DNA of 12,614 nucleotides. It comes from Circinella minor (lineage: Eukaryota > Mucoromycota > Mucoromycetes > Mucorales > Lichtheimiaceae). This document shows, in pieces, positions 1 to 12,017 of this stretch. How positions within the stretch are numbered: the stretch's first letter is position 1; every line of letters begins with the position of its first letter. The stretch is taken from contig JAEPRB010000580.1 of assembly GCA_016758965.1 (NCBI GenBank), positions 1 through 12,614 on the forward strand, given 5' to 3'. The translations under genes and the position numbers were made by a program. Under the pieces are notes generated by a model. It had not been told where the DNA came from and did no database searches. It worked only from the letters and a program-made list of their open reading frames with translations.

Positions 1-950
1 AATTAAACTTGATATGTTCAAGTTAGATACTGAATAGGTTGAAATGGAATTAATTACATATTTTATTCATTCCAATAACAACACTTATTTAAGCCGATTC
101 AGAATAGCGATCTCTTGCTAGGTAATCAGTCATTTGTATTGATTTTTCATCCATAGGTACGTAGAATAACTCTCATAGCATCCCTTGAGGAGAATACTGT
201 ATATTAATAGATACGTAACTAGATGAATTTGCGAACATAACACAGTACATATATATTCATATCTAAAGTTATGAACGCAAAAAGGCAATTGCTAATTTCT
301 TTGATTATTTCATAAATAAAAACATAATACTAAGCAAAAAATGAAGATGCCCCATAGGAAAGCATTATTTTATTATGATAAATAAAGACAAAGTCATGAC
401 TTGTATTTACTACTTGTTTTTTACTGTACTAGTTTTTCTTTTGCTTAATCTTCTTTTTTTTGCTATATACAATGATTGTATGGCTTTTTTCGGACCTATT
501 AGTTTCTTGAGATATTTGTAGATTCAGATATCATTACAATTCAACTGTTAGTTACCGAGTTTATTGATATTGTTTTGGTATAGTTAAATGTAATATGCTT
601 ACCGTATTTTATTATTCCTATATGTATGGATATCTTTTTGTGTGTTCTGAAATGGATTCAAAGGTCACTTGTATGATAGTTACTATTGAATTAAACAAGT
701 GATTTTAGTTGGACGATGTATTAAGTGAATAGTAAATATTTACACTTACCTGCATATGTATGTGATACAGAACTGTACTCTATTATGAGTAGTGTTTTTT
801 ACCTCTTGTTAGTTCGTAATGACAATAAGATGAGCTCTTCAAGTCTCTGATTCTAATGTAGGTTGTATAAAGTCCTGCTCGTGAATTACCAAAATATTTT
901 GTATGTGCTTTTTCTTCATTTTCTCCATGGCTAAAAAATAATTGACTTAC
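1..950. other. AT-rich intergenic DNA without a recognisable gene
   Basis: Both strands are broken by frequent stops and no open frame here reads like protein. Two TACGTA palindromes (158-163, 212-217) are present. No tRNA-like, terminator-like or repeat structure was recognised. Confidence 0.6.
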
Positions 951-1004
951 TGTTTTAAATGGTTATTTTTGAGAGATCACTTTGGTGGTTTTCTTTACCT
1001 ATAA

Positions 1005-1125
1005 CTTTTTTTTATATGTTTTTTTTTTACGTATGTTCTTTTTTTATGTTTTTTTTTTTTATGTTTTTTTTTTATGTTATGTTCTTTTTTTATGTTTTTT
1101 TTATATGTTTTTTATACGTATATAT
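1005..1125. repeat. T-rich minisatellite, degenerate (T)7-11 ATG units
   Basis: The plus strand is a run of T tracts of 7-11 bases separated by ATG, ATATG or ACGTATG, for example TTTTTTTATG repeated with small changes. Two TACGTA sites (1028-1033, 1115-1120) sit inside or at the edge, and a third lies just beyond (1137-1142). The Phe/Met/Tyr-rich open frames seen in two plus frames are a by-product of this composition and are not genes. Confidence 0.8.
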
Positions 1126-1269
1126 TATAATAGCATGTACGTAATATTTTTCTTGATCACGTCACAATACTCCTATGTGGTTGAGCCTTCGGTAATAGTT
1201 GATATCCTCTCATCGTTAGTGCTCTTTAATACTTGATTCCGTAAGTCAGACGTTTCATCATACGTTTTT

Positions 1270-1470
1270 TCATATTGTAAATTTCCCCAAGTAAAATGAC
1301 AATATTGCTCCCTTGAAGTTTTGATAATCACAAAACGGAATGCCCCTGAGTATATCTGCTAGCTCGAATATATGTTGACCAAGGTATAACCAAACGTATT
1401 TTTTCTGTTGCGTGTTTCTAGTGATATTAAGTTGCTCTTTTGCTTTGTTTTGAGTGCTTGGTTGTTGCAT
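1270..1470 (-). pseudogene. Block A fragment 6 (66 codons)
   Basis: A frame with plausible globular content, for example YVWLYLGQHIFELADILRGI, ending in TGA. A second frame of the same DNA (IVILLGEIYN) resembles fragment 4 (IVIFWGCDIR), which hints that one of the two copies is frameshifted. No known domain. Confidence 0.25.
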
Positions 1471-1729
1471 ATTCTTTACTAATAGGTGTCAATATAAAAT
1501 ACGTAGTGTTGTTTGCATGGTTTCTTTCGTGGTAAATTAATTGTTGATTGTTGATTGTTGGTTTCGATTATAAAAAAAAATATGAACTGTTAGGTAATGG
1601 TGGTGCTGTTATCTACTGAATGTAGCGTGCTTCGTATAATATAACAGTTGTTGCGCTTCCTGGATATTGATGACTGGTGGTATTGATTCCTTTCAGAGTC
1701 TGTTTATGTGACAAATAGTGTTCTTGATA

Positions 1730-2065
1730 CTATAACTTCCCAATTGAATGAAAGTTGCTCCTTTTGATTGTTGTTGTGGTGACGATGATGATGGTGACAG
1801 TGGTGCTACTGCTGTTGTATGTAATATGTGCTGTGTTTTTGATCGTAGCAATTTTCATACTGTTACTATAAATATGTATAGCTGGTAGTATTTTTATAGC
1901 ATTCCGCGATCGTTTTTCATAATAATTTGTTTCTTGAAAAAAAAAATATGGCTTGCTGATTTTTTGAATTGACGCTCCAAAAGCAATTCCTTTAATATAG
2001 TTCGAATTTTCGTTTTCAAAATATGGCTTCCTTGAGCTTCCAATAGGATAAAAAGTGGTGATTTT
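1730..2065 (-). pseudogene. Block A fragment 5 (111 codons without start)
   Basis: Open from after a TAA (2066-2068) to a TAG (1730-1732). The first half (NYIKGIAFGASIQKISKPYF) reads like a folded protein; the second half becomes Thr/Ser-rich (TTVTIIIVTTTTIK). It lacks an ATG until far inside, so it is likely an exon remnant or decayed internal segment. Not recognised. Confidence 0.3.
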
Positions 2066-2200
2066 TTAGTGGTTCAATAACAAATGGTTTGATCTTTGTG
2101 TTTTAGAGATGACGGTGATGTGATCAAGATGTTATACGTAGTATAATCCTCCTTTTTTTTTGATAGATGTTACTGTTATCAAGAATATAATTGTATGTAA

Positions 2201-2347
2201 TTATTTGTACTTGTTGATTTTTGATCCATAAAGTTTAATAATGTGCCCCGTATATGTTTGCTGTCTTATGTCACAACCCCAAAATATGACAATGTGCTCG
2301 CATCTTGAATGATAGTAATGATCCCCAATAGTTGTTGTCCTTGAATA
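2201..2347 (-). pseudogene. Block A fragment 4 (48 codons)
   Basis: Open between a TAA at 2348-2350 and a TAA at 2201-2203, with no Met start. It includes CEHIVIFWGCDIRQQTYTGH. The DNA around 2270-2320 resembles that around 1290-1340: both read on the minus strand as TTCAAG, then an A/G/C-rich stretch, then ATTGTCAT, then GGGG. Block A may therefore contain internally duplicated modules. Function unknown. Confidence 0.25.
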
Positions 2348-2692
2348 TTATGACTTGGTATTTGATGTTTAGTTTCATTAAGATAATTGGTGCGTATATA
2401 TCGTGACGATTAATTTTAGTAATCCCTTTTTAATATGCTTCCCCTTTTTCTTGGTAATAAGATGTTCAATTTCCATATATTGCCCAATAGAAATATATAT
2501 TTGATGACGATTTGTGATAATGATAATGATGAACGCTCTATAAGAGGATACCGCTCTTGTTTTTGATATTTGATATCTTCACGGGTCTTTTCAATACTTG
2601 TCATTCGACTATCTGAAAAACCCCAATATAATTTCTTTCTTTAGGTGGCTTGAGAATCATTTGTTGTAATAAAAATTTTACTTCTTCTGATG

Positions 2693-3076
2693 TCATATAC
2701 GTATATATACATGGATGTTCCCTGCTTCATACCGTATAATAGTGTATGTTTGGTGTGATTTAGTTTGGTTTGAAAAGATTTGGTTCGTTGTGAAAACATG
2801 AGTTGCGATCGTTTGTTTTTGAATAATGTTTTTTTTTATATATGTACAATAAGGTGGTGCTGCTTTGATAATTATTGATGATAAATTGGCAGATGATGTT
2901 GTTATTTGTTCCGTGACTTGGTGTTGTATTTTTGATAAATCATAGTGTTGAATAACGCTTCTGATATTTTTGTTGAGTTGTTTCTTTTTTGATGTGTGCG
3001 AAAAAAAAATAGAGTAATGTTGATAGGTGGTTTTCTTTTTTTGGTTCCAATGTTCATTCTTGTTTTTCATTACCAT
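2693..3076 (-). pseudogene. Block A fragment 2 (127-aa frame)
   Basis: This 127-codon frame is Lys/Gln/Thr/Ile-rich, with a central protein-like stretch (SVIQHYDLSKIQHQVTEQ) near residues 41-58. It starts at ATG in a CCATGG context and ends TAA next to a TACGTA site (2698-2703). It probably continues fragment 1 after a frameshift rather than being an independent gene. No motif, signal peptide or membrane segment is seen. Confidence 0.3.
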
Positions 3077-3272
3077 GGTTTTTGTTGGTAGTGAGTCCGC
3101 ATAAAAAAATATGGTTTGTTGGTTTACAAAATAGTCTTAATTGAGTTATATCGATTTTGACTCCTGATTCCTTCACCCACAATAGCTGCGATTCAGTATC
3201 AAAAAGAAGACATAATTGATACCAATGTCCCGTTAGTTCAGTTTGTGTTTGTCCAAAAGAATCACCTCCCGA
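3054..3272 (-). pseudogene. Block A fragment 1, best-preserved piece (72 codons)
   Basis: The frame is open from just after a TAA at 3273-3275 to a TGA at 3054-3056. It contains balanced, globular-looking sequence such as GHWYQLCLLFDTESQLLWVK, then LRLFCKPTNHIFLCGL, with regular alternation of hydrophobic and polar residues typical of beta strands. It has no Met start. The following fragment (3076-2693) begins out of frame with a Met in CCATGG and overlaps its end by 23 nt, so one frameshift would join them. Function unknown. Confidence 0.4.
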
Positions 3273-3634
3273 TTACTTGAGTTCTTGTTATAGTAGAAAA
3301 AAATGGAAGCTTCACAAATATCCCAAAGAGCACCCCAAGGTTGAGAATCCAGCCACCCTAAGCTAGAATTCATACCAATGTCTCCAAGTTCATCTGCGTC
3401 AACGCACGATGAACTTCCATTCTAAAGATGGGATCTTCTGTCCAATAGAGGGTATCTTGCGAACACCAAAAAAACAAGTGTAAAAATTATTCCGCAATGA
3501 CATCGGAATGTGCACCTTCTAACAATAGGTGTCTGCGCCCACCAAAAAAAAAAACAAATGAGGGAGAACTCTGTGGCGCCTTCCGTGTGCCACACGCCAA
3601 AAAAAACCAAAGCGCCAAAAACGCCAAAGCCTCT

Positions 3635-3661
3635 GCGCACCCTGCGCACCCTGCGCACACC
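3635..3661. repeat. Three tandem copies of a 9-bp unit CTGCGCACC
   Basis: Two perfect copies and a third ending CTGCGCACA are visible. Translated, they give Gly-Cys-Ala or Arg-Arg-Val repeats depending on frame, which explains the odd composition of the minus-strand open frames across this point. Confidence 0.85.
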
Positions 3662-3666
3662 CTAGG

Positions 3667-3960
3667 ATGACACCTCAACGAATGGACTTGATGAAGAAAA
3701 GGACTTACGGGCAGTGCAGTCCATACTACAGCTGGTGTACTAGGCTCCAGGGCCCTACTCCGTGGCATCACCCATGGCTGATGACCATGAATGCAGGATC
3801 GGAGGTACACAGAGTAAGAGAACTTCAAGGACACTTGTTCCTTTATAGGTCCCTTGGCAATCCGATACCTCTATCTGGAACAGATGTGAGGCCGATGACA
3901 ATACTAACACTGGGAATTCATTATTCTGCTTCCATTATAACAAGCTTGCAATTGTTATAA
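3667..3960 (+). CDS. Possible 97-aa reading frame in the GC island
   Basis: ATG-initiated and open for 97 codons, with a mixed composition (Trp, His, Pro, Met) unlike the flanking low-complexity frames. No motif, signal peptide or membrane segment is evident, and an equally long frame lies opposite on the minus strand. The openness may simply come from higher GC. Treated as a weak hypothetical. Confidence 0.15.
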   Translation: MTPQRMDLMKKRTYGQCSPYYSWCTRLQGPTPWHHPWLMTMNAGSEVHRVRELQGHLFLYRSLGNPIPLSGTDVRPMTILTLGIHYSASIITSLQLL

Positions 3961-4041
3961 TGGAGTATATAAAGACCTATAAATCAACTCTTTTAATAGT
4001 TAGTAAAATCCGATCAACACGTTACATTCATTACTTTTCAT

Positions 4042-4047
4042 TTTATT
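4042..4047 (-). terminator. Candidate polyadenylation signal AATAAA
   Basis: On the minus strand AAAAAATAAAATG lies about 80 nt after the TGA that closes the last exon (4127-4129). It is well placed to end the transcript that starts near 6890. Confidence 0.4.
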
Positions 4048-4126
4048 TTTTCAAGAACAAGAAAAAAAGGAAAAATAACTTACGGTCTTTATATCGAAAA
4101 AGAAAAACGCTTGTTTGTCATCACTT

Positions 4127-4369
4127 TCATGCCAAGAACCTAACCAGACCAAGTGTCCCATCCGTATCCCAAACTCTGCTTCCCCCCTTACCCACACCCA
4201 CGGTCACCAACCATAGGCTAGCCACAGAAGTAGGCACCCCTTCACCGTTCCACCAACCATAGTATGAACATACACTACCTTGCCTTCTCTCCACCAAGCC
4301 ATCCGCCAAGATGCCATCCTCTTCCGCCCCACCAAGCGGTACAAACCTACCCGTAACACCACTACGGGT
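4127..4369 (-). other. Candidate terminal exon E10 of the array transcript
   Basis: A branch-like ATCTAATC and an acceptor TTTGAATAG precede it. From its first base one frame is open for 80 codons to a TGA at 4127-4129. The sequence is GC-rich with Gly, Val, Trp and Arg abundant (for example GRFVPLGGAEEDGILADGLV, YYGWWNGEG), unlike the T-rich exons before it. It opens with a perfect hairpin (4349-4369). No frame of the preceding exon E9 stays open into this frame, so if it is translated E9 must be skipped: E8 ends in a compatible phase. A second minus frame (4204-4416) overlaps and is less convincing. Function unknown. Confidence 0.35.
4349..4369 (-). other. Perfect hairpin at the 5' edge of E10
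   Basis: Seven-base arms ACCCGTA and TACGGGT enclose a 7-nt loop. The 5' arm begins exactly at the predicted splice acceptor. It could influence splice-site choice in RNA. Confidence 0.55.
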
Positions 4370-4467
4370 CTATTCAAATAAAAAATATAATTACAGATTA
4401 GATATCCATTGTTCATTCTTTATAATCCCGTATTCTTTACATATTTATCCTTTTATATTTTACATAC

Positions 4468-4532
4468 CTCAATGGTTCAAAAACCATTCACTGCGCCAAA
4501 AATGGACAAAACTGTGAGGGAGTCGCCTCAAC
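4468..4532 (-). other. Array exon E9 (65 nt)
   Basis: Acceptor AACTAG, exon start GTTGAGGCGACTCCCTC, donor GAG|GTATGT. It is the most diverged copy of the repeated mini-exon. In the frame that opens most copies (codon split as AG|G) it reads LRRLPHSFVHFWRSEWFLNH and then meets TGA one base before the donor. The two other frames have earlier stops. Confidence 0.5.
4471..4488 (-). other. Perfect hairpin at the 3' edge of E9
   Basis: AATGGTT and AACCATT flank a 4-nt TTTG loop. It ends 2-3 nt before the predicted donor GAG|GTATGT, so the last intron is bracketed by a hairpin in each flanking exon. Confidence 0.55.
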
Positions 4533-4631
4533 CTAGTTATTAATAAAATATATAATAAATGTTTCATTAGTTGTCACAATATTAATCACCAGCATTAACT
4601 CTTGTTTATCCATGTACGTAATTCAACATAC

Positions 4632-4699
4632 CTCTAACAAAAAAAACAGCAAAACTGAAAAAATAAATACGGAACAAAAATGAGGGAGACTTGCTCGGC
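4632..4699 (-). other. Array exon E8 (68 nt)
   Basis: Branch site TTACTAAC (4730-4737), acceptor ATATATAG, exon start GCCGAGCAAGTCTCCCTC, donor GAG|GTATGT. Two frames are open, both highly hydrophobic (for example FCSVFIFSVLLFFLLE). The length is not a multiple of three. Confidence 0.55.
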
Positions 4700-4796
4700 C
4701 TATATATTAAAATGACACGATGAAATGACGTTAGTAACTAAAAATACAGTTGATTATCATATCATTATATATATATACAAGCTTATTTGTAAGTAC

Positions 4797-4852
4797 CTTC
4801 AAAAATAAATAATAAATAATAGAGGGAGGAAGGGAACCAGCCCAACCTCGAC
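4797..4852 (-). other. Array exon E7 (56 nt)
   Basis: Branch site TTACTAAT (4886-4893), acceptor TATATATAG, exon start GTCGAGGTTGGGCTGG, donor GAAG|GTACTT. It has a small insertion in the conserved head compared with its neighbours. Confidence 0.55.
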
Positions 4853-4974
4853 CTATATATATAAATGTGGATGATGCAAAGTATGATTAGTAACTATAGT
4901 ATCATTTCAACTTCATACTCTTATTCATATCCGTATCCATATCCATATCCATAACATACATATAAAATATTTAC

Positions 4975-5061
4975 CTCAATGATAGCAGCAAAAATGTGGA
5001 ATAAATAGGGTATAAATACAAAAATAAGGGTATAACAAAAAGAAGAGGGAGCCTGCTCGAC
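4975..5061 (-). other. Array exon E6 (87 nt, symmetric)
   Basis: Acceptor TATATATAG, exon start GTCGAGCAGGCTCCCTC, donor ATTGAG|GTAAAT. This is the only full copy in the first array whose length is a multiple of three. Read with the split codon AG|G it gives SSRLPLLFVIPLFLYLYP and stays open to a matching split codon, so its inclusion or skipping would preserve frame. The frame starting at its first base is also open. Array-2 exon e4 has the same phase property. Confidence 0.6.
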
Positions 5062-5175
5062 CTATATATATGAATGTGGAATACGTATGATAATAATGGT
5101 CAGTAGCTGCGATATCACTTTTATTCATCACCCAATCCATAATTCATATCCATATTATATATTTAGAATATTTAC

Positions 5176-5255
5176 CTCGAAAACAACAAAAATAAATAGG
5201 GTATATTCTAAAACGGGTATATTGAAAAAAAAAAAGAAAAGGGAGCCAGCTCGAC
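5176..5255 (-). other. Array exon E5 (80 nt)
   Basis: Acceptor TCTATGTAG, exon start GTCGAGCTGGCTCCCTT, donor TTCGAG|GTAAAT. An 11-base T run inside makes the frame sensitive to one-base slips. The frame beginning at its first base stops at TAG after 15 codons; the other two are open. Confidence 0.6.
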
Positions 5256-5372
5256 CTACATAGATATAGATATGAGTTACGTGAAATATAATTAGTACTG
5301 TAGCTACGTATCAGATCATTTTTACTTATCGCCTTGTCCGTTGTCCGTATCCAATATTCATAAAATATTTAC

Positions 5373-5445
5373 CTTAAATAAAATGGGTATATTAATATAA
5401 ATAGGGTATCTTGAACATAAAAAAAAAAGAGGGAGTCCACTCGAC
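5373..5445 (-). other. Array exon E4 (73 nt)
   Basis: Branch site ATACTAAT, acceptor ATATTTAG, exon start GTCGAGTGGACTCCCTC followed by ten T, donor TTTAAG|GTAAAT. Its split-codon frame (RSSGLPLFFL...) is open and ends in phase 0. Confidence 0.6.
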
Positions 5446-5541
5446 CTAAATATATATATGGATAACAATAAAGGTAGGATATTAGTATACGTTAAATTTA
5501 ACTACTGACATCAATTTGTATCCACTCGACCAAATAATTAC

Positions 5542-5617
5542 CTCTCAAAAAAACACCAACTATCGAACTGCACCAATAGAAAAAAAAAAGTAAAGAGAAA
5601 CGCAAAGGGAAACGAGC
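5542..5617 (-). other. Array exon E3 (76 nt)
   Basis: Branch site ATACTAAT, acceptor CTTTGTAG, exon start GCTCGTTTCCC, donor GAGAG|GTAATT. In phase with E2 it encodes a strongly hydrophobic stretch (FPFAFLFTFFFLLVQF) long enough to span a membrane. The following intron is clearly homologous to the intron between array-2 exons e3 and e4. Confidence 0.5.
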
Positions 5618-5705
5618 CTACAAAGAAGAAGATCGTTGTATTAGTATTCAATATTCTTATATGCTTTATACCCAACTCATAATAATAATATAAAAAGTTC
5701 CTTAC

Positions 5706-5831
5706 CAATAAAAAGAAAAGAAAAAGAAATGATTTTTTTTTGGGGTTTTAAAAGGTTTTTTTCGATTTTTTTTGGAGGTTTTTTAAGGTTTTTATACTTT
5801 TTTTTTGGGATTTTTGTTGGTTTTATATTTT
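5706..5831 (-). other. Candidate exon E2 (126 nt), Lys/Pro-rich
   Basis: Acceptor AAATTTAG and donor TATTG|GTAAGG. Only one frame is open throughout; it is very basic (KPTKIPKKKYKNLKKPPKK) and then turns into a Phe-rich end. The frame needs one leftover base from the upstream exon, which is what E1 would supply beyond its TAG. The DNA is a low-complexity run of G tracts spaced by T tracts on the plus strand, so the open frame may be accidental. Confidence 0.35.
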
Positions 5832-5939
5832 CTAAATTTTAACACAAAAAAGAAAAAAAAAACGGGTCAGTAACAAGTTCTTTTTTTTTTTTTTTTGACA
5901 AGTAAAAAACATGTTTTAAACAAGTATTATGAAACTTAC

Positions 5940-5971
5940 TTTTGTGGTTTTTTTAAGGTATGAAAAATAAA
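5940..5971 (-). other. Possible 32-nt micro-exon E2a
   Basis: Bounded by an acceptor TTTTGTAG and a strong donor AAAA|GTAAGT. Its inclusion would shift frame by two. It may equally be a chance pair of sites in the long first intron. Confidence 0.2.
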
Positions 5972-6040
5972 CTACAAAATAGAACAATTATAATTAAAAT
6001 ACACAATAAAATGGTTTTTTTTTGTATGCAATAAGACAAA

Positions 6041-6047
6041 ACTTACC
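6041..6047 (-). promoter_or_regulatory. Splice donor 7 nt after the stop codon of the 262-aa gene
   Basis: GAGGAG|GTAAGTTTT is the strongest donor match in the window. Its position just after TAG means downstream exons are 3' untranslated unless the stop is bypassed. Confidence 0.65.
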
Positions 6048-6053
6048 TCCTCT

Positions 6054-6842
6054 CTAGAACCAAATTGATGTGGCATTGGGGGGGAGGATATCCACCTCCA
6101 TATCCCCCTCCCACCAATCCACATCCATATACTCCTTATCTCCAAATCTCCAATCAACCTCCATATATTCTTCTTCTTCTTCACCTTCTTCTTCATCATC
6201 ACTTTCTTCACCATCATCATCACTTTCTTCTTCTCTTTCTTCCTCATCTTCTTCTTCTTCTTCTCTTTCATCTTCTCTTTCATCTTCAACACCTACATCA
6301 AAACTACAACTAGAACTAGTGCTACCAACCGAACGAGCAGAAACATCATCACCACCAGGGACAGAAACCAAGGAACCAGAGGAACCCGAAAATACGGACG
6401 AGAGAGACGAGACAGGTAAAAGCGGAGAAAGAGTAGGAGAGTAAGCGGGTGAACCTGGAGGAGAAGAGCCAGGAGAGAGATTGGGGAGAGTCGAAAGAGT
6501 TGATAGAGTCGAGATTGAAGAGACAGGAGAAGGCGGAGCAGAAGAAATGGGTGAAGCAGGAGTAATAGTAGCAGCAGCTACAAAAGAAGCAACGCGACCA
6601 GAAGACAAGCGAGAGGGACAAAGTCGCTGGCGCGGAGCAATCTCTCTTTTAGAGATTTCTTGTTTTTTGATTGTGTTGATGACAGAACGCAAACCTGGTT
6701 GTACCCAGCCGGAGCTAGGTACAATGACAGGAATGGAGGTTCGGAGAGGAGCAATAGGAGGACGATTATAACGGAAGCGAATGCGTGATTTATTATGATT
6801 GTAAGCAGCAGCAGGAGCTGTAAGTGAAGTAGAGCGTGTCAT
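6054..6842 (-). CDS. Ser/Pro-rich acidic, largely disordered protein (262 aa)
   Basis: This is the only intact, convincing gene in the window; I do not recognise its family. Residues 18-76 are basic and contain RIRFRYNRPP and a patch KKQEISKREIAPRQR. Residues 95-160 are Ser/Pro-rich with many SP and TP pairs (SPGSSPPGSPAYSPTLSP), possible proline-directed phosphorylation sites. Residues 184-226 are almost all Glu and Asp. Three short repeats follow: EYMEVDW, EYMDVDW, DMEVDI. No signal peptide or membrane segment is seen. The ATG is the first one after the expected transcription start, about 72 nt below a TATA box, with a short pyrimidine-rich leader. The frame ends in TAG, and a canonical donor GAGGAG|GTAAGT follows only 7 nt later, so the transcript is probably spliced after the stop. 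A nuclear regulator or chaperone-like acidic protein would fit, but this is inference. Confidence 0.8.
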   Translation of the reverse strand: MTRSTSLTAPAAAYNHNKSRIRFRYNRPPIAPLRTSIPVIVPSSGWVQPGLRSVINTIKKQEISKREIAPRQRLCPSRLSSGRVASFVAAATITPASPISSAPPSPVSSISTLSTLSTLPNLSPGSSPPGSPAYSPTLSPLLPVSSLSSVFSGSSGSLVSVPGGDDVSARSVGSTSSSCSFDVGVEDEREDEREEEEEDEEEREEESDDDGEESDDEEEGEEEEEYMEVDWRFGDKEYMDVDWWEGDMEVDILPPNATSIWF

Positions 6843-6913
6843 ACTTGTAAGTAAAAAAAAAAATAAAAAGGGTAAAGAAAAAAAAAAAACGCGCCGCCAT
6901 GGAAATGAATTTT

Positions 6914-6922
6914 TATTTTATA
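6914..6922 (-). promoter_or_regulatory. TATA box of the 262-aa gene
   Basis: TATAAAATA on the minus strand, in the sequence GCAGCTATAAAATAAAAATTC. Initiation about 30 nt downstream (near 6885) would leave a T-rich leader of about 40 nt. An ATG at 6900 (CCATGGCGG) would lie upstream of that start and is out of frame. Confidence 0.5.
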
Positions 6923-6997
6923 GCTGCATTACGGTTACCATTCCTTTGGATCCCGGCACACAGTCTAGAACCAACTATTTGATTACCACCTCCACAT

Positions 6998-7013
6998 ACA
7001 CACACACACACAC
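6998..7013. repeat. (CA)8 microsatellite
   Basis: Uninterrupted CA dinucleotides upstream of the 262-aa gene, beyond its TATA box. Confidence 0.9.
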
Positions 7014-7516
7014 TATACTCATAATTTTTATTACTACTTTTTATAATGTAATGACATCTATTTATTATTATTATGAAATCTTTTATAAAAGAAAAAGTAA
7101 AATCTCTTTATTCTTCATTTCAGAAAAAGAATGTCACTTCTTAACTAATCTAAAACAAATAAAGTTATAAAAATGCACGGACCACTCTGGTTTTACCTGA
7201 ACCTCAACTATTTTTTTTTTCCTTAATACCTTGAAATGAAGTAGTTTTATCGAGTCACTCTAATTCTATGAAATGACCTCAAGTTAAAAAATAATAATAC
7301 TAACAGTTGAAATGGCGTCTTTTAAATATGATTAGTTTCTTATGAACCACACCATTTATACCAAGAAATAATATATTATTATACGGAAATAAAGCCACAA
7401 ACCTTATTTTTCTTACATAAAGTTTAACTGGGATAAAGTATTAGAAATGGATGTCCTTGGTGATTACGAGTATCTTTAATAGAATATTAATAATAAAGCC
7501 TTCGTGTTTTCAAGTA

Positions 7517-7816
7517 TTACACATTGTTAGATATAATTTTTTCATATGTTGAAAGCTGCCTGAAACGCTGGGTTAGCTCTTTAATCCGGAAGATCTTAAA
7601 GAGTATGACCTTTTCAACGTGTTTATGCTCATACGTACAACTATTATTGTTATGAATAATTTTGAAAAAGTAGTCTTGATATTCATTGATGATTTTCATA
7701 TGAACAGTGAAATTTACTACCGCTGGTTTATAGCACTTTCTCACTTGGATACCAATTGATCGATAATAACGACGAGTTCCATTTTTAATGGTAATTAGAT
7801 ATACCTTTTCTACAGA
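7517..7816 (-). pseudogene. Block B C-terminal fragment (99 codons)
   Basis: Open from after a TGA to TAA at 7517-7519, without an ATG at its start. It includes EKVYLITIKNGTRRYYRSIG, CYKPAVVNFTVHMKIINEYQ and HVEKVILFKIFRIKELTQRF. The NGTRRYYRSIG part faintly recalls KKGRSKYDIPFGF in the previous fragment, suggesting a repeated fold. A further short piece (VEVQVKPEWSVHFYNFI) lies at about 7213-7134. Confidence 0.4.
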
Positions 7817-7969
7817 TCACCAATTGGACACAAAGATTGAGTTTGACAGTATAAAAAAAGTTATTCAGATAACCAATTTTATATTAGGATTGACAGGCTA
7901 TTCATCTTATATTGTTATGTTTGTTTATACCCACTAAACTAAATACTTTAATCTGTAATCAACTAATGC

Positions 7970-8247
7970 CTATTTTTCTATTGTACGATAGGAGTTGAAA
8001 CCAAAAGGTATATCATACTTGGATCTTCCTTTTTTTCCTACTATATGGACAGCAACCTTAATACTACATATATTTTGATTTGATTGAGACACCTTTTCAG
8101 TTGTGTAGATATACTTCTGTATGATCATAAACTATGCTTTTCAACAAGTTTAGCTAGATTAAAATTTTTGACAACCATTATTTTTATAGTTTCGGATGAG
8201 ACCGAAATAATAACACGACCTTTCGGGTCCAACTGAGTCGCTCCAAT
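7970..8247 (-). pseudogene. Block B fragments joined by a one-base frameshift
   Basis: 8247-8125 reads TQLDPKGRVIISVSSETIKI and ends in TGA. An ATG overlapping that stop in another frame (8128) opens 8128-7970: MIIQKYIYTTEKVSQSNQNI, SIKVAVHIVGKKGRSKYDIP, FGFNSYRT. The two together look like one beta-rich domain. Confidence 0.4.
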
Positions 8248-8295
8248 TTAAAGCAGTTTTCACCTTAGCAATCATATCCTGATGAACATATGATG

Positions 8296-8586
8296 TTAAT
8301 TACCTATATACGGTTCCATTTTTATACAGCCTTGTACCTGTTTCTGGTTTTTGATTTTGGTGGATGGTGGTGCTATATATACTTGCTTGTATCGCTTAAA
8401 AGTTTTTTTTTCTACTTCGGATGGGCACTTCATAGCTCTTGCGGACTTTCTGGGAAAAAGTCCCATTTCAGGGTTGTTGGCCATTGTTGATACAGCAACA
8501 GTTTCTGTTTCTTCAAATAATTGCTATCTCAACAACAACGTTCCTCGAATAAATTCCACCATCTCGTACAGAATGAACACGTCATC
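8296..8586 (-). pseudogene. Block B fragment with one in-frame TAG (about 96 codons)
   Basis: DVFILYEMVEFIRGTLLLR is followed by TAG (8524-8526), then in the same frame QLFEETETVAVSTMANNPEM, LFPRKSARAMKCPSEVEKK and QVYIAPPSTKIKNQKQVQGC to TAA at 8296-8298. The segment is basic. The opposite strand also has an open frame here (8351-8590), taken as its shadow. Confidence 0.4.
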
Positions 8587-8915
8587 TTAACTACTTTATA
8601 CCTTCTTCTATACAAAACATGGTATAATGCGGCATCATTCTTAATCGCCTCAGCAACTTGCAGTTATGCAACAAATACTCCTGATTTATTGTAAACACTA
8701 ATCGTGGAAGACTTTTTCTTTTCATTGACTTGTATCAACAGCCAATTATTCCACACATTCATTTCTTGCTGTACGAGAATGGCATCATCCTTGTACAATT
8801 CCAGACTAAGAGTGTACTTCAATGAAGTTACCAAGTTCATCAGCGCGTCACATGTACTTTTGTCTGTATAATACTCTAACAATGACGATGAAACCAAGTA
8901 TAAAACAAAGTGAAT
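8529..8915 (-). pseudogene. Block B fragment with one in-frame TAA (about 128 codons)
   Basis: Contains SLLEYYTDKSTCDALMNLV, SLELYKDDAILVQQEMNVWN and NWLLIQVNEKKKSSTISVYN, ends FVA with TAA at 8664-8666, and continues in frame with LQVAEAIKNDAALYHVLYRR to TGA at 8529-8531. Near its end another frame (8586-8527) reads DVFILYEMVEFIRGTLLLR, so a frameshift lies at about 8590. Confidence 0.45.
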
Positions 8916-8988
8916 TCAACCGATCGATCTATAAAAGTCACTGTGAGAAAAAAGTGGTGTATTAATTACCGGCAACGTCTGCAGACGA

Positions 8989-9351
8989 CTAAGATGGGTC
9001 TGCGATTAGTCTACAAAATTGTTGGCACGTTCTTGGTGGTAAATATAATGGGTTTTCTTTTTTACCATATTCACCAATAACGATGGATCAAAGTTGGTTT
9101 TTGGTTTCTGATAACAAAGGGATCGAATCAAAAGCAAAAAAGGTCGCACCATGGAGATATACAAAAATGGACCTGTATGACTGTCCACTTCCCTTATTCT
9201 TGATCTCAGCTTGATACATTTTCTGTTCGTCAAAAGATTTGATCACACGGGCTCTTACTGTTAGATTTGGAGGAAATGTCATCCAGTTCAACATAAATTC
9301 ACCACTAATCAAACAAAGCATAAATCTGTGATAATCTAAACTTTGTCGTTT
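8989..9351 (-). pseudogene. Block B fragment with one in-frame TGA (about 120 codons)
   Basis: Before the stop: RQSLDYHRFMLCLISGEFML, FPPNLTVRARVIKSFDEQ, QSYRSIFVYLHGATFFAFDS. After TGA (9088-9090), in the same frame: SIVIGEYGKKENPLYLPPRT and CQQFCRLIADPS, then TAG (8989-8991). This is the clearest nonsense break in the block. No catalytic motif was recognised. Confidence 0.45.
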
Positions 9352-9423
9352 TTACAACTGCCAAATTATCACTTCCACAAAATAAAAAATTGGATACACA
9401 CACGTAATGGATCAAATTCTGTT

Positions 9424-9750
9424 TCAACCATGATCCCTGGGTTTGCAAAGCTGTTTCGGATCATCCAATAATGACTTGAAGAAGGTCATGTCTTGCGGTT
9501 TATTGGATCTTTGAAATATACTAATTTGTAACATGAAAGGGTTCTCTATTTAATGTTTTGGATTTATAGTCACTACGGCTAGGGGCACAATTGTCGTGGG
9601 GTGTTTATTGGATTGAAACTGCTGGTAGTCATCGCTATACAACCATAATACAATCACCATTTTATTCTCGCACAAATGCTCCACATCCTCATATGGTTCA
9701 CCATCACTGCTCTTTATAGTACGTTTGGATAAATACTCCAGTAATGGGAG
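9424..9750 (-). pseudogene. Block B fragment with one in-frame TAA (about 108 codons)
   Basis: The first part contains RTIKSSDGEPYEDVEHLCEN, VIVLWLYSDDYQQFQ and PTTIVPLAVVTINPKH, then a TAA at 9550-9552. The same frame continues with IENPFMLQISIFQRSNKPQD and MTFFKSLLDDPKQLCKPRD to a TGA at 9424-9426. Coherent sequence on both sides argues that the TAA is a nonsense mutation in a formerly continuous frame. Confidence 0.45.
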
Positions 9751-9805
9751 TTACACTTTTAATCACTGTATCTTGCTGTCGCAGTGACAGCTCTTCTCCT
9801 TTGTA

Positions 9806-10009
9806 TCATGTTGTTGTACAATGTACACGATCTGTGGAACTTGCCATCTGGTAAGTAATTTTTTCATCTCTTATGGGGCGAATAGAACAAAAAGTTTGGT
9901 TTGAAAGGGAATGAGTCACAAAGATGTTGCTTGAAAGATGATAACTGGGAGTCAAAAGCAATTTTTCATCTGTGAAACTGTTAATTAGGCCGATTATTTG
10001 ATTAGATAA
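9806..10009 (-). pseudogene. Block B fragment (67 codons)
   Basis: Open from 10009 to TGA at 9806-9808, with IIGLINSFTDEKLLLTPSYH, SNIFVTHSLSNQTFCSIRPI and RDEKITYQMASSTDRVHC. Balanced composition and no low complexity. It follows the previous fragment directly after two closely spaced stops. Confidence 0.4.
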
Positions 10010-10012
10010 CTA

Positions 10013-10159
10013 TCATGGTGCTCCATCTTCAACAGCTAGTGCATAGATGTCAATGGTGGTCTGCATATTATTATCAGTAAATGTTGGGTATTTGTACGAA
10101 AAAAATCGTAATGTGGAACCTCGTTTGGAAGTTGGCTTGTTGATGTTTAGGTCACACAT
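10013..10159 (-). pseudogene. Block B fragment (48 codons)
   Basis: Reads MCDLNINKPTSKRGSTLRFF and on to TIDIYALAVEDGAP. The upstream DNA in another frame gives SAPHFQPSELSVC, and removing one GT of a duplicated GTGT would join the two, so the break looks like a recent dinucleotide slip. Confidence 0.4.
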
Positions 10160-10275
10160 ACTGATAACTCACTAGGTTGAAAATGTGGAGCAGAAATGGA
10201 TGAAAAATTTGAGATGTTGGGGTAATTGGATAGGTATGTGGAATTTTGCCTTCAGACACTGTAGTTTTATTGTCA

Positions 10276-10455
10276 TCATTGAAATATTCTAGACCTGGTT
10301 AGGAATGATCCAATGTCATAGCTGTTGTCTTGGTGACCTTGAATCAACATATTAGTTATATCATCACCCAAACCCAGTGGAGACAATAGATCTTGATAGG
10401 TTGATATGAAGGTCGGATTGGATTGAAAAGTTAACTGAAAATCTTGATGGATCAT
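10276..10455 (-). pseudogene. Block B N-terminal fragment (59 codons from ATG)
   Basis: Starts MIHQDFQLTFQSNPTFISTY and continues acidic and polar (LGLGDDITNMLIQGHQDNSY). Upstream DNA is AT-rich, so this ATG may be the original start. It ends in TGA, but a one-base shift at about 10296 continues into PGLEYFNDDNKTTVSEGKIP (10298-10152). Confidence 0.4.
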
Positions 10456-11045
10456 GATGTTTTACAAATAATTTTAGATGTTAATGCATGAAATAAAAAA
10501 AAATTGTATATAAAAAGAAGTAAACATAAGTCAACCTTGACTGGATTGAATGTTACATTGTCGGAATTAGGGGGATAAAGGGACGATAGAACCTAGAGGA
10601 AACATCAGTGTTTACATATATTTGTATATCTGCTACATATTTTTCGAATCCTTTTTTTTTTATGTATGTAGTACGCATGAGGATTTTTTTTATCCGAATT
10701 CGTAAAATCGTTATTTATTAAAAGGGTACAAAGTCTCCCCGTCCATTTCATATTTGTTAATTTTTACACCTCATTAACTTCACTAAAAATCAAGGAGTGG
10801 TAAAAAATAATATAACAAAACTTCCATATCCTTATTTATTTCAAGTTTCATAGGACCTAACAAAATTGACTGCTTAGCTGATAGAGAACAAAAAAATTAT
10901 TTTTACGTATATTAATTAGATTACATATTATACAGGATAGGCTACTTTTTTATTATATCCACTTGAGTGTTTTTCATAAGAGCTTATAGAATGTTTATTT
11001 ACTCTTTGTCATTCCCGCTTTAAACATTTGTATATCAAGTTGATT
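10456..11045. other. AT-rich intergenic DNA without a recognisable gene
   Basis: Short A/T tracts and frequent stops on both strands. One TACGTA site at 10904-10909. A TATATA-like run at 10514-10520 on the plus strand could be part of the lost promoter of block B. Confidence 0.5.
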
Positions 11046-11159: not shown

Positions 11160-11661
11160 TTTGGTACGTATATTATATATGAAGGAAAGAAATACGGAGA
11201 TAGGAAAAGATACAACAATATAGAAAATGAATGATGTTTGTAGTTTTGTGACTATATTCAGCATTTTTTCCCTTCAACGCAAGGTTATGAACGTTCTTAA
11301 TAAGAAAAAGAACTACGGTAATTATAAAAATATATTGATAACAATGCACATACATATAATTTATTTATTACTTAGCTAAGTATTTATTGTAGATATTTTA
11401 AAAAAAATAATGATTTGAAGTACGTATTCAATATATCCATGTTCATCGAAAAAAGAAATGTATACGTAGTATCTGCTAATTTTCACAGCTACTCATTTTT
11501 ACAAAAAGGAAATAAAAAATGTCATTATAAAGATTAACGAGGATCCTCTCTATATGAATATGAGTTAGGGTAACTATGATTAGTAACTACAGTTTTATTT
11601 CCATTTAACACCCTTATCAATATCCATATCCATATCCACAGTACATATATAAAATATTTAC

Positions 11662-11733
11662 CTCCACAATGATAGCAAAATGTTTACGTAGAATAAATAG
11701 GGTCTACGAACAAAAAGAGGGAGCCAGCTCGAT
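11662..11733 (-). other. Array-2 exon e4 (72 nt, symmetric)
   Basis: Acceptor TATATATAG, exon start ATCGAGCTGGCTCCCTC, donor GTGGAG|GTAAAT. Its split-codon frame (SSWLPLFVRRPYLFYVNILL) is open and ends with the same phase, as in E6; the frame from its first base hits a TAG. Preservation of the same frame in two separate arrays is the best hint of coding here. Confidence 0.55.
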
Positions 11734-11834
11734 CTATATATATGAATAACAATAAGCTTATGATATTAGTATGGTGTACAGTTGATTTAACCTACGTATG
11801 TCATTAATTTTCCCATACCCGATCAAGAAATTAC

Positions 11835-11865
11835 CTCAAAAAAATGGGAGAAGCTCAACTGCAAC
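11835..11865 (-). other. Array-2 exon e3 (31 nt, or 24 nt with an alternative acceptor)
   Basis: Acceptor TTTATTTAG followed by GTTGCAG and then TTGAGCTTCTCCC; the second AG gives an alternative 24-nt exon aligned with the conserved head. Donor TTTGAG|GTAATT. It is shortened relative to other copies. Confidence 0.45.
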
Positions 11866-11964
11866 CTAAATAAAAGAACATATACATATTAGAACTAGTA
11901 AATTATTGACATCATTATTTCTCTTTTCCACTTTCAATCCATACGTATACGCAATTATATTTAC

Positions 11965-12017
11965 CTCCAATAACACCGATTAGAAAAGACGAAATGAATG
12001 CACAAAGAAAAACATGT
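11965..12017 (-). other. Array-2 exon e2 (53 nt)
   Basis: Acceptor GTTTATAG, donor TTGGAG|GTAAAT, placed like E3 in array 1. Its head has diverged from GCTCGTTTCCC. Confidence 0.45.

Follow-up and report, generated by a model that had tools for sequence, protein, structure and literature searches.

The locus and its predicted chain of short introns

The window, i.e., the whole stretch of DNA analysed here, is the complete contig C568 of the Circinella minor assembly (12,614 bases), and the genome searched comprises 46.6 Mb in 619 contigs. Its minus strand carries an open reading frame (ORF) of 262 amino acids, followed by a chain of splice signals for 11 short introns running from 6047 to 3976, in which seven tandem micro-exons are embedded (Table 1). 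An earlier note, made from the letters of the window, had described these seven exon-intron units between 5617 and 4468; all of them were found at the outer coordinates it gave and with exactly the exon lengths it listed, 87 nt being the only multiple of three. The features it ascribed to every unit held in part. An exact TACTAAT branch site stands ahead of four of the seven exons, its place being taken by TACTGAC, TACTAAC and AACTAAT in the rest; the conserved exon head is present in six and missing from E4; and the exon bodies were described as T-rich, E10 having only 35% T.

Table 1. Predicted features of the ORF-array locus and of the second array in the window
Feature	Position	Strand	Basis
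ORF in exon 1, 262 aa, MTRST...NATSIWF, stop TAG 6056-6054	6054-6842	-	Stop position kept in six copies
7 nt between stop codon and first donor GAG/GTAAGT	6047-6053	-	Sequence, six-copy comparison
Exon 2, 32 nt, non-coding in the window copy	5940-5971	-	P0003 has the same E1-E2 junction in copy C495
Exon 3, 126 nt, A-rich, length varies	5706-5831	-	Splice signals
Micro-exon 4, 76 nt	5542-5617	-	Splice signals
Micro-exon 5, 73 nt, head GTCGAGTGGACTCCCTC	5373-5445	-	Splice signals, unit model
Micro-exon 6, 80 nt	5176-5255	-	Splice signals, unit model
Micro-exon 7, 87 nt, invariant columns 76/87 (six copies)	4975-5061	-	Splice signals, unit model, alignment
Micro-exon 8, 56 nt in six aligned copies, invariant columns 49/56	4797-4852	-	Splice signals, unit model, alignment
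Micro-exon 9, 68 nt	4632-4699	-	Splice signals, unit model, alignment
Micro-exon 10, 65 nt	4468-4532	-	Splice signals, unit model, alignment
Exon 11, 286 nt	4084-4369	-	Splice signals, copy comparison
Exon 12, begins at acceptor 3976, end uncertain	3709-3976	-	Splice signals
Second, shorter array, three introns: 11965 to 11865, 11835 to 11733, 11662 to 11549	11549-11965	-	Unit model, intron grammar

The chain is longer than the array itself: introns 1-3 precede it on the ORF side, and introns 10-11 follow it. Introns 1-10 measure 75-122 nt, and the branch motifs of introns 2-11 begin 29-44 nt upstream of the acceptor; intron 1 has no strict branch motif (TTTTAAT only). With an intron grammar of donor GTA.., branch site NNCT[AG]A[CT] and acceptor [CT]AG, 10 branch-acceptor pairs were counted in 4350-6060 on the minus strand; 200 dinucleotide shuffles gave 1.8 ± 1.4, and none of them reached 10. 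One of the ten, at acceptor 5297, is nested and spurious, and intron 1 fails the grammar. Under the same grammar, the plus strand of this region holds no such pair, and neither strand of regions 1-3500 and 6900-11000 shows an excess of them. In two ordinary genes of the same genome, the Mago and UPF2 loci, introns begin with GTAA, and TACTAA occurs in two UPF2 introns (by eye). From its signals, the chain is expected to be spliced in vivo. A GTAAGT donor also follows exon 12 after 3709, for which the grammar gave no acceptor. As well, the first, coding exon of the second array would fall beyond the contig end.

The C-terminal half of the 262-aa ORF is acidic and predicted to be disordered, and a structure model of a 261-residue piece of it is of low confidence (mean pLDDT 47.7). 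No known protein domain scored above the cut-off in this ORF, and nine other ORFs of the window together with the C. umbellata protein P0001 gave sub-threshold matches only. One of these, in the minus-strand ORF 2696-3136, is to DUF5855 (E=5e-4, 20.6 bits against a cut-off of 28), lies in AT-rich sequence and is probably due to chance; the minus-strand ORF 9091-9351 found no homologue in the protein search. A viral link was dropped, as none of the 600 matches of a pattern search in IMG/VR encodes a relative. A snoRNA host, or another known RNA in the introns or exons, was likewise rejected, no part of the window having an Rfam match at the gathering score. The telomere repeat, searched as exact TTAGGG x4, had no match in the genome.

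A multicopy family with mosaic copies

A protein search with the ORF gave five matches outside the window at E<=1e-3, in Circinella only, and two more C. umbellata proteins were reached through the C-terminal part of P0002. According to these searches, the predicted gene is one of a multicopy family so far found in Circinella only. In the genome, the ORF has 29 matches and the array, used as a DNA query, at least 35, six of which (the window's own included) span all or nearly all of the array; besides the window, sixteen further stretches were taken for comparison. The two parts recur together: an ORF match adjoins the array in 12 of the 14 contigs with array matches, the remaining two being C172, where the contig ends, and C94, where the ORF match is 22 kb off.

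Six copies with an intact frame end in ...NATS[IL]WF and stop at the same place with three different codons (TAG in C568, TAA in C404b and C216b, TGA in C352, C88 and C603), the first donor following after 7 nt in C568, C404b and C216b, 4 nt in C352, and 14 nt in C88 and C603. The same terminal residues close P0001 and P0005, two of the six retrieved C. umbellata proteins, and in the distant paralog C197 a TAA stands at the same place with GTGAGT 8 nt after it. Among the six intact copies, dN/dS of the ORF is 0.38-0.60 in 12 of 15 pairs and 0.38-0.83 in 14 of 15, the exception being the pair C404b-C216b (1.47, with low dS); several further copies look broken. The first junction also appears in a protein model, P0003 (Circinella minor INT45_008406), which equals the ORF residues of copy C495 up to the E1-E2 junction and then continues into spliced exon 2, its terminus ...KEEFIL being the exact spliced E1-E2 reading of that copy.

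A run of C directly before the stop (6056-6090) counts 7 Cs in four intact copies and is interrupted by A in C88; it is 8 to 10 long in C211, C404a, C216a, C495 and C43, in which the frame is shifted past the stop. When two of these frame-changed copies were spliced in silico, the frame ended in E3 (C211) or E2 (C495), both before the array.

From 36 units of six copies, a unit model was made that covers the branch site, the acceptor and the head of the exon. It gave 73 matches with E<0.05, spread over 17 stretches; seven units fall in the window, one of them in the second array. Five matches with no assignable acceptor were dropped, leaving 68 units, of which 36 were recovered by construction because they had seeded the model; a donor was found in 63 of the 68 and a branch motif in 60. 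GT after AG opens 63 of the 68 heads, and AG/GTA stands at 62 of the 63 donors found (the search required GGTA). By this model the copies hold 1 to 6 units each, some assignments looking off (e.g., in C43 and C216a), and the alignment places one extra unit between E4 and E5 in C352 and C216b. Divided by three, the lengths of the 63 exons leave a remainder of 2 in 33, 0 in 18 and 1 in 12. Exon 8 measures 56 nt in C400 as well as in the six aligned copies; its counterparts are longer in C211 (81 nt) and C172 (77 nt). The exon head contains the near-palindrome GAGCNNGCTC in 26 of the 63 exons (e.g., 5061-5045), with GAGT..ACTC variants in E5; a hairpin was dropped as its explanation, the loop being two bases and thus too short, and the palindrome not being formed in E8-E10.

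Similarity between copies is 84% for units in corresponding positions, whereas within a copy units from different positions reach 60%, not far from the shuffled 54%. Therefore, the tandem amplification predates the spread of the copies, and the splice signals and the head are the main features lasting between units. Within the window copy, the units are 52-67% alike (mean of shuffles 0.54, maximum 0.60).

In places the duplication that the copies share extends to about 10 kb, and identity shifts along the copies. C603 and C88 share with the window almost no DNA-alignable exon 1 beyond the exon end, dS being about 1.3 and near saturation over the alignable codons; over the array and exons 11-12 they are 83-95% identical to it, and over E11-E12 C603 reaches 94-95% and its close relative C88 85-91%. 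Exon 11 is 94-99% alike in five of eight other copies and 84-91% in C88, C400 and C172, and the block 3562-4400 is 94-97% alike in C211, C404, C352, C603 and C216, even in copies whose coding exon differs strongly. Array identity to the window is 72-73% for C216b and C211, figures probably lowered by added or missing units (C216b has 81% in the genome DNA search). The simplest reading of these shifts is that the 3' module moved between paralogs by gene conversion.

Another part of the window, 8061-10400, which has no known domains, recurs twice each at C216 and C404 (86-88%), in part at C5 (84%), and at C85, C102, C43 and C524 (68-70%); C5, C85, C102 and C524 are not among the array matches listed. 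At C216 13298-14484, part of the exon 12 region is present twice, the two copies being separated by an N run, perhaps an assembly join.

Conservation and coding potential of the exons

Invariant columns were counted over six aligned copies in introns 3-10 and exons 4-10 and compared by Fisher tests. The earlier note had proposed as a test that splice sites should be better conserved than intron interiors, and this is what was found: 39 of 48 donor columns and 28 of 32 acceptor columns are invariant, against 473 of 751 in the interiors (p=1e-4). Exon heads likewise exceed the other exon columns (88/102 vs 259/403, p=8e-6), and the splice dinucleotides of exons 2-10 are all kept in the six copies except for one donor, after E5 in C404. 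When the exon columns other than the heads are pooled, their invariant fraction (0.64) is not above that of intron interiors (0.63); against C352 and C216, pooled exon columns reach 80-81% identity, equal to the 81% of the introns. The individual exons differ: the invariant fraction is 0.87 in E7, 0.88 in E8, 0.81 in E9 and 0.82 in E10, with 0.54-0.75 in their preceding introns, and 0.47 in E4, 0.45 in E5 and 0.56 in E6, which are no better kept than the introns before them (0.49-0.75 over all introns preceding E4-E10).

Pairwise indels are multiples of three in 5 of 34 cases in exons and 12 of 51 in introns. Variable exon columns are not concentrated at third codon positions; E10 is a weak exception (3, 3 and 6 over the three positions), and E7 has the fewest at third positions (5, 4 and 1). 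Substitutions in E11 are flat over the codon positions (e.g., 15, 14 and 15), and its 80-codon open frame, present in six of nine copies, is broken in C88, C172 and C400. With splice sites and heads well kept but 29 of the 34 exon indels breaking a triplet frame, the best reading of the units is as non-coding micro-exons of a 3'UTR, not as variable C-termini.

Both of these had been among the suggestions of the earlier note. Its variable 3'UTR fits the single stop place, with three stop codons 4-14 nt before the first donor in six paralogs, as well as the ends of P0001 and P0005. Its variable C-termini do not agree with the off-frame indels, with substitutions that have no third-position bias (E10 weakly excepted), or with the frame-changed C211 and C495, which terminate ahead of the array. 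A coding array was rejected on the indel phase, the flat or third-position-poor substitutions, the conserved stop and the spliced translations. The remaining C. umbellata models speak against a non-coding array: in P0002, P0006 and P0007 (three of six), exon 11 and some array-like exons are coding and the end of exon 1 is spliced out, P0006 and P0007 seeming, by eye and as gene models, to read through window-intron sequence in the manner of retained introns; P0004 ends elsewhere.

A further suggestion, a decayed effector-like micro-exon gene, does not suit the intact copies, in which the splice sites are kept apart from the donor lost in C404 and the ORF dN/dS lies mostly at the values given above, although several other copies do look broken. 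In schistosome micro-exon genes, as described in PMC10526429, the small exons code for secreted proteins, and introns can be up to 5 kb long. The window shares with them its runs of small exons in a multigene family, and differs from them in its non-coding-looking exons and its introns of 75-122 nt. Exon lengths in the schistosome genes are mostly multiples of three, in comparison with 18 of 63 here. A gene of the schistosome type was rejected because the window exons do not evolve as coding.

A candidate 3'UTR module for mRNA decay

We propose that translation would end in exon 1 of this multicopy Circinella gene, and that the transcript would then cross at least 11 short introns, the seven tandem micro-exons joining a long non-coding tail. 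The 3'UTR junctions may mark the mRNA for decay dependent on the exon junction complex (EJC), the micro-exons may supply UAUUUAU sites for a zinc-finger protein of the TTP/Cth2 type, and the number of units, varying among copies, may scale or tune the decay control. On balance, it is probable that the spliced, AU-rich 3'UTR tail with its tandem micro-exons sets the life of the mRNA. Against the proposal stand the three C. umbellata models with coding sequence in this region, the open frame of E11 in six of nine copies, the pooled exon columns that are no better kept than introns, the longer counterparts of exon 8 in C211 and C172, and the one ORF pair with a dN/dS of 1.47.

In the predicted mRNA, junctions 3-10 lie 165-670 nt past the stop and junction 11 about 956 nt; given the predicted splicing, junctions 3-10 are beyond the distance of more than about 50 nt after the stop that is typical of NMD-controlled genes with 3'UTR introns. 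Of the EJC core and UPF factors, Mago nashi and UPF2 were searched for, and both have domains above the cut-off in the genome. According to PMC6173133, post-stop junctions can trigger decay in fungi that retain the exon junction complex, and 3'UTR introns trigger EJC-dependent NMD in Neurospora (PMC6173133, citing Zhang and Sachs 2015). The window resembles these cases in having introns more than 50 nt past the stop in a genome that encodes Mago and UPF2. Unlike them, it has at least ten predicted introns in series, most of which go back to a single old tandem duplication; its gene is a multicopy orphan, and decay of the mRNA is predicted from the sequence.

The motif UAUUUAU is present in 41 of the 63 exons and 6 of the 56 introns. 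Counted as TATTTAT, it occurs 58 times in the exons, against 5.2 ± 2.4 in shuffled sequence, and 7 times in the introns, against 7.7; in the window copy alone, it occurs 7 times, against 0.52 in shuffles (0/5000). Its columns are weakly better kept than other columns of the exon bodies (40/49 vs 166/260, p=0.02). Since the motif was noticed and picked before testing, and the units are related by descent and not independent, this enrichment is a lead.

TTP acts on AU-rich 3'UTR targets, as is the case for Cth1/Cth2. A tandem CCCH protein with the motifs LYKTEYC...RYKTQIC, which we take to be of the TTP type, is encoded at C220. The window gene, with post-stop UAUUUAU(U) beyond chance (the motif being chosen post hoc) and such a protein encoded in the same genome, resembles the targets of Cth1/Cth2 and TTP; unlike in those targets, its candidate sites lie inside separate micro-exons. 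Yeast Cth2 has been tied to the AU-rich element UAUUUAUU (PMC4732752), in which UAUUUAU is contained.

A more specific version of the proposal, which we regard as speculative and unlikely, is a countable decay element, in which each micro-exon would bring one exon junction and usually one AU-rich site, and the number or skipping of units would set the mRNA life of each paralog, the coding ends diverging while the 3' module is swapped by gene conversion.

Control of mRNA decay is the most likely function, and its main rival is that the array is a neutral passenger, in which an exon was long ago duplicated in tandem together with its intron; the result would have persisted because most of it is spliced away, and would have been spread and homogenised by gene conversion, the exons having no function beyond splicing. 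The age and divergence of the units in the window copy, close to the shuffles, and the large, mosaic duplicated segments agree with such a history, as do E4-E6, conserved no more than their preceding introns; the heads and E7-E10, however, are better conserved than introns, the exons, unlike the introns, are enriched in UAUUUAU, and exon 8 keeps its 56 nt across six aligned copies. On this evidence a passenger without exon function seems somewhat unlikely.

It is quite improbable that the array and exons 11-12 form a long non-coding RNA of their own, encoded on the strand of the ORF but unjoined to its mRNA. The donor a few nt past the stop is conserved and used by P0003, introns 1-3 bridge the ORF and the array, and the two are adjacent in most contigs (12 of 14), although exons evolving without a reading frame, and a block 3562-4400 more alike than the ORF between several copies, would suit such an RNA. 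A combinatorial cassette encoding variable C-termini is very improbable: the stop is conserved with three different codons, the exons show no codon-like evolution, and frame-changed copies terminate in E3 (C211) and E2 (C495), against which can be set the mixed-phase exon lengths, the pre-stop C-run that is 7 long in four stopping copies and 8 to 10 in several others, and the C. umbellata models that run into such exons.

For the decay module, part of the background is established, 3'UTR introns associated with NMD being already known, and in Cryptococcus 3'UTR introns are reported as the least conserved class (PMC5006051). In the open-licence PMC literature, we found no description of a conserved tandem run of similar size in a fungus, nor of this gene family. 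At least ten predicted 3'UTR introns after a fixed stop, kept across paralogs and partly in the models of a second species, would offer a naturally occurring case in which to ask whether 3'UTR splicing is itself under selection as a function, and whether junction-dependent and AU-rich decay act jointly in early-diverging fungi.

As to the origin of the run, the AGGT model describes intron gain by tandem duplication of exon plus intron (PMC4974935), and the window resembles it in its tandem units and in AG/GT on both edges of most exons. Unlike in that model, the existing introns look multiplied and not newly made, and the duplication is old. What points to multiplication is the similarity of units E5-E7: compared together with the intron ahead of each, they reach 60-67%, and shuffled sequences average 54%.
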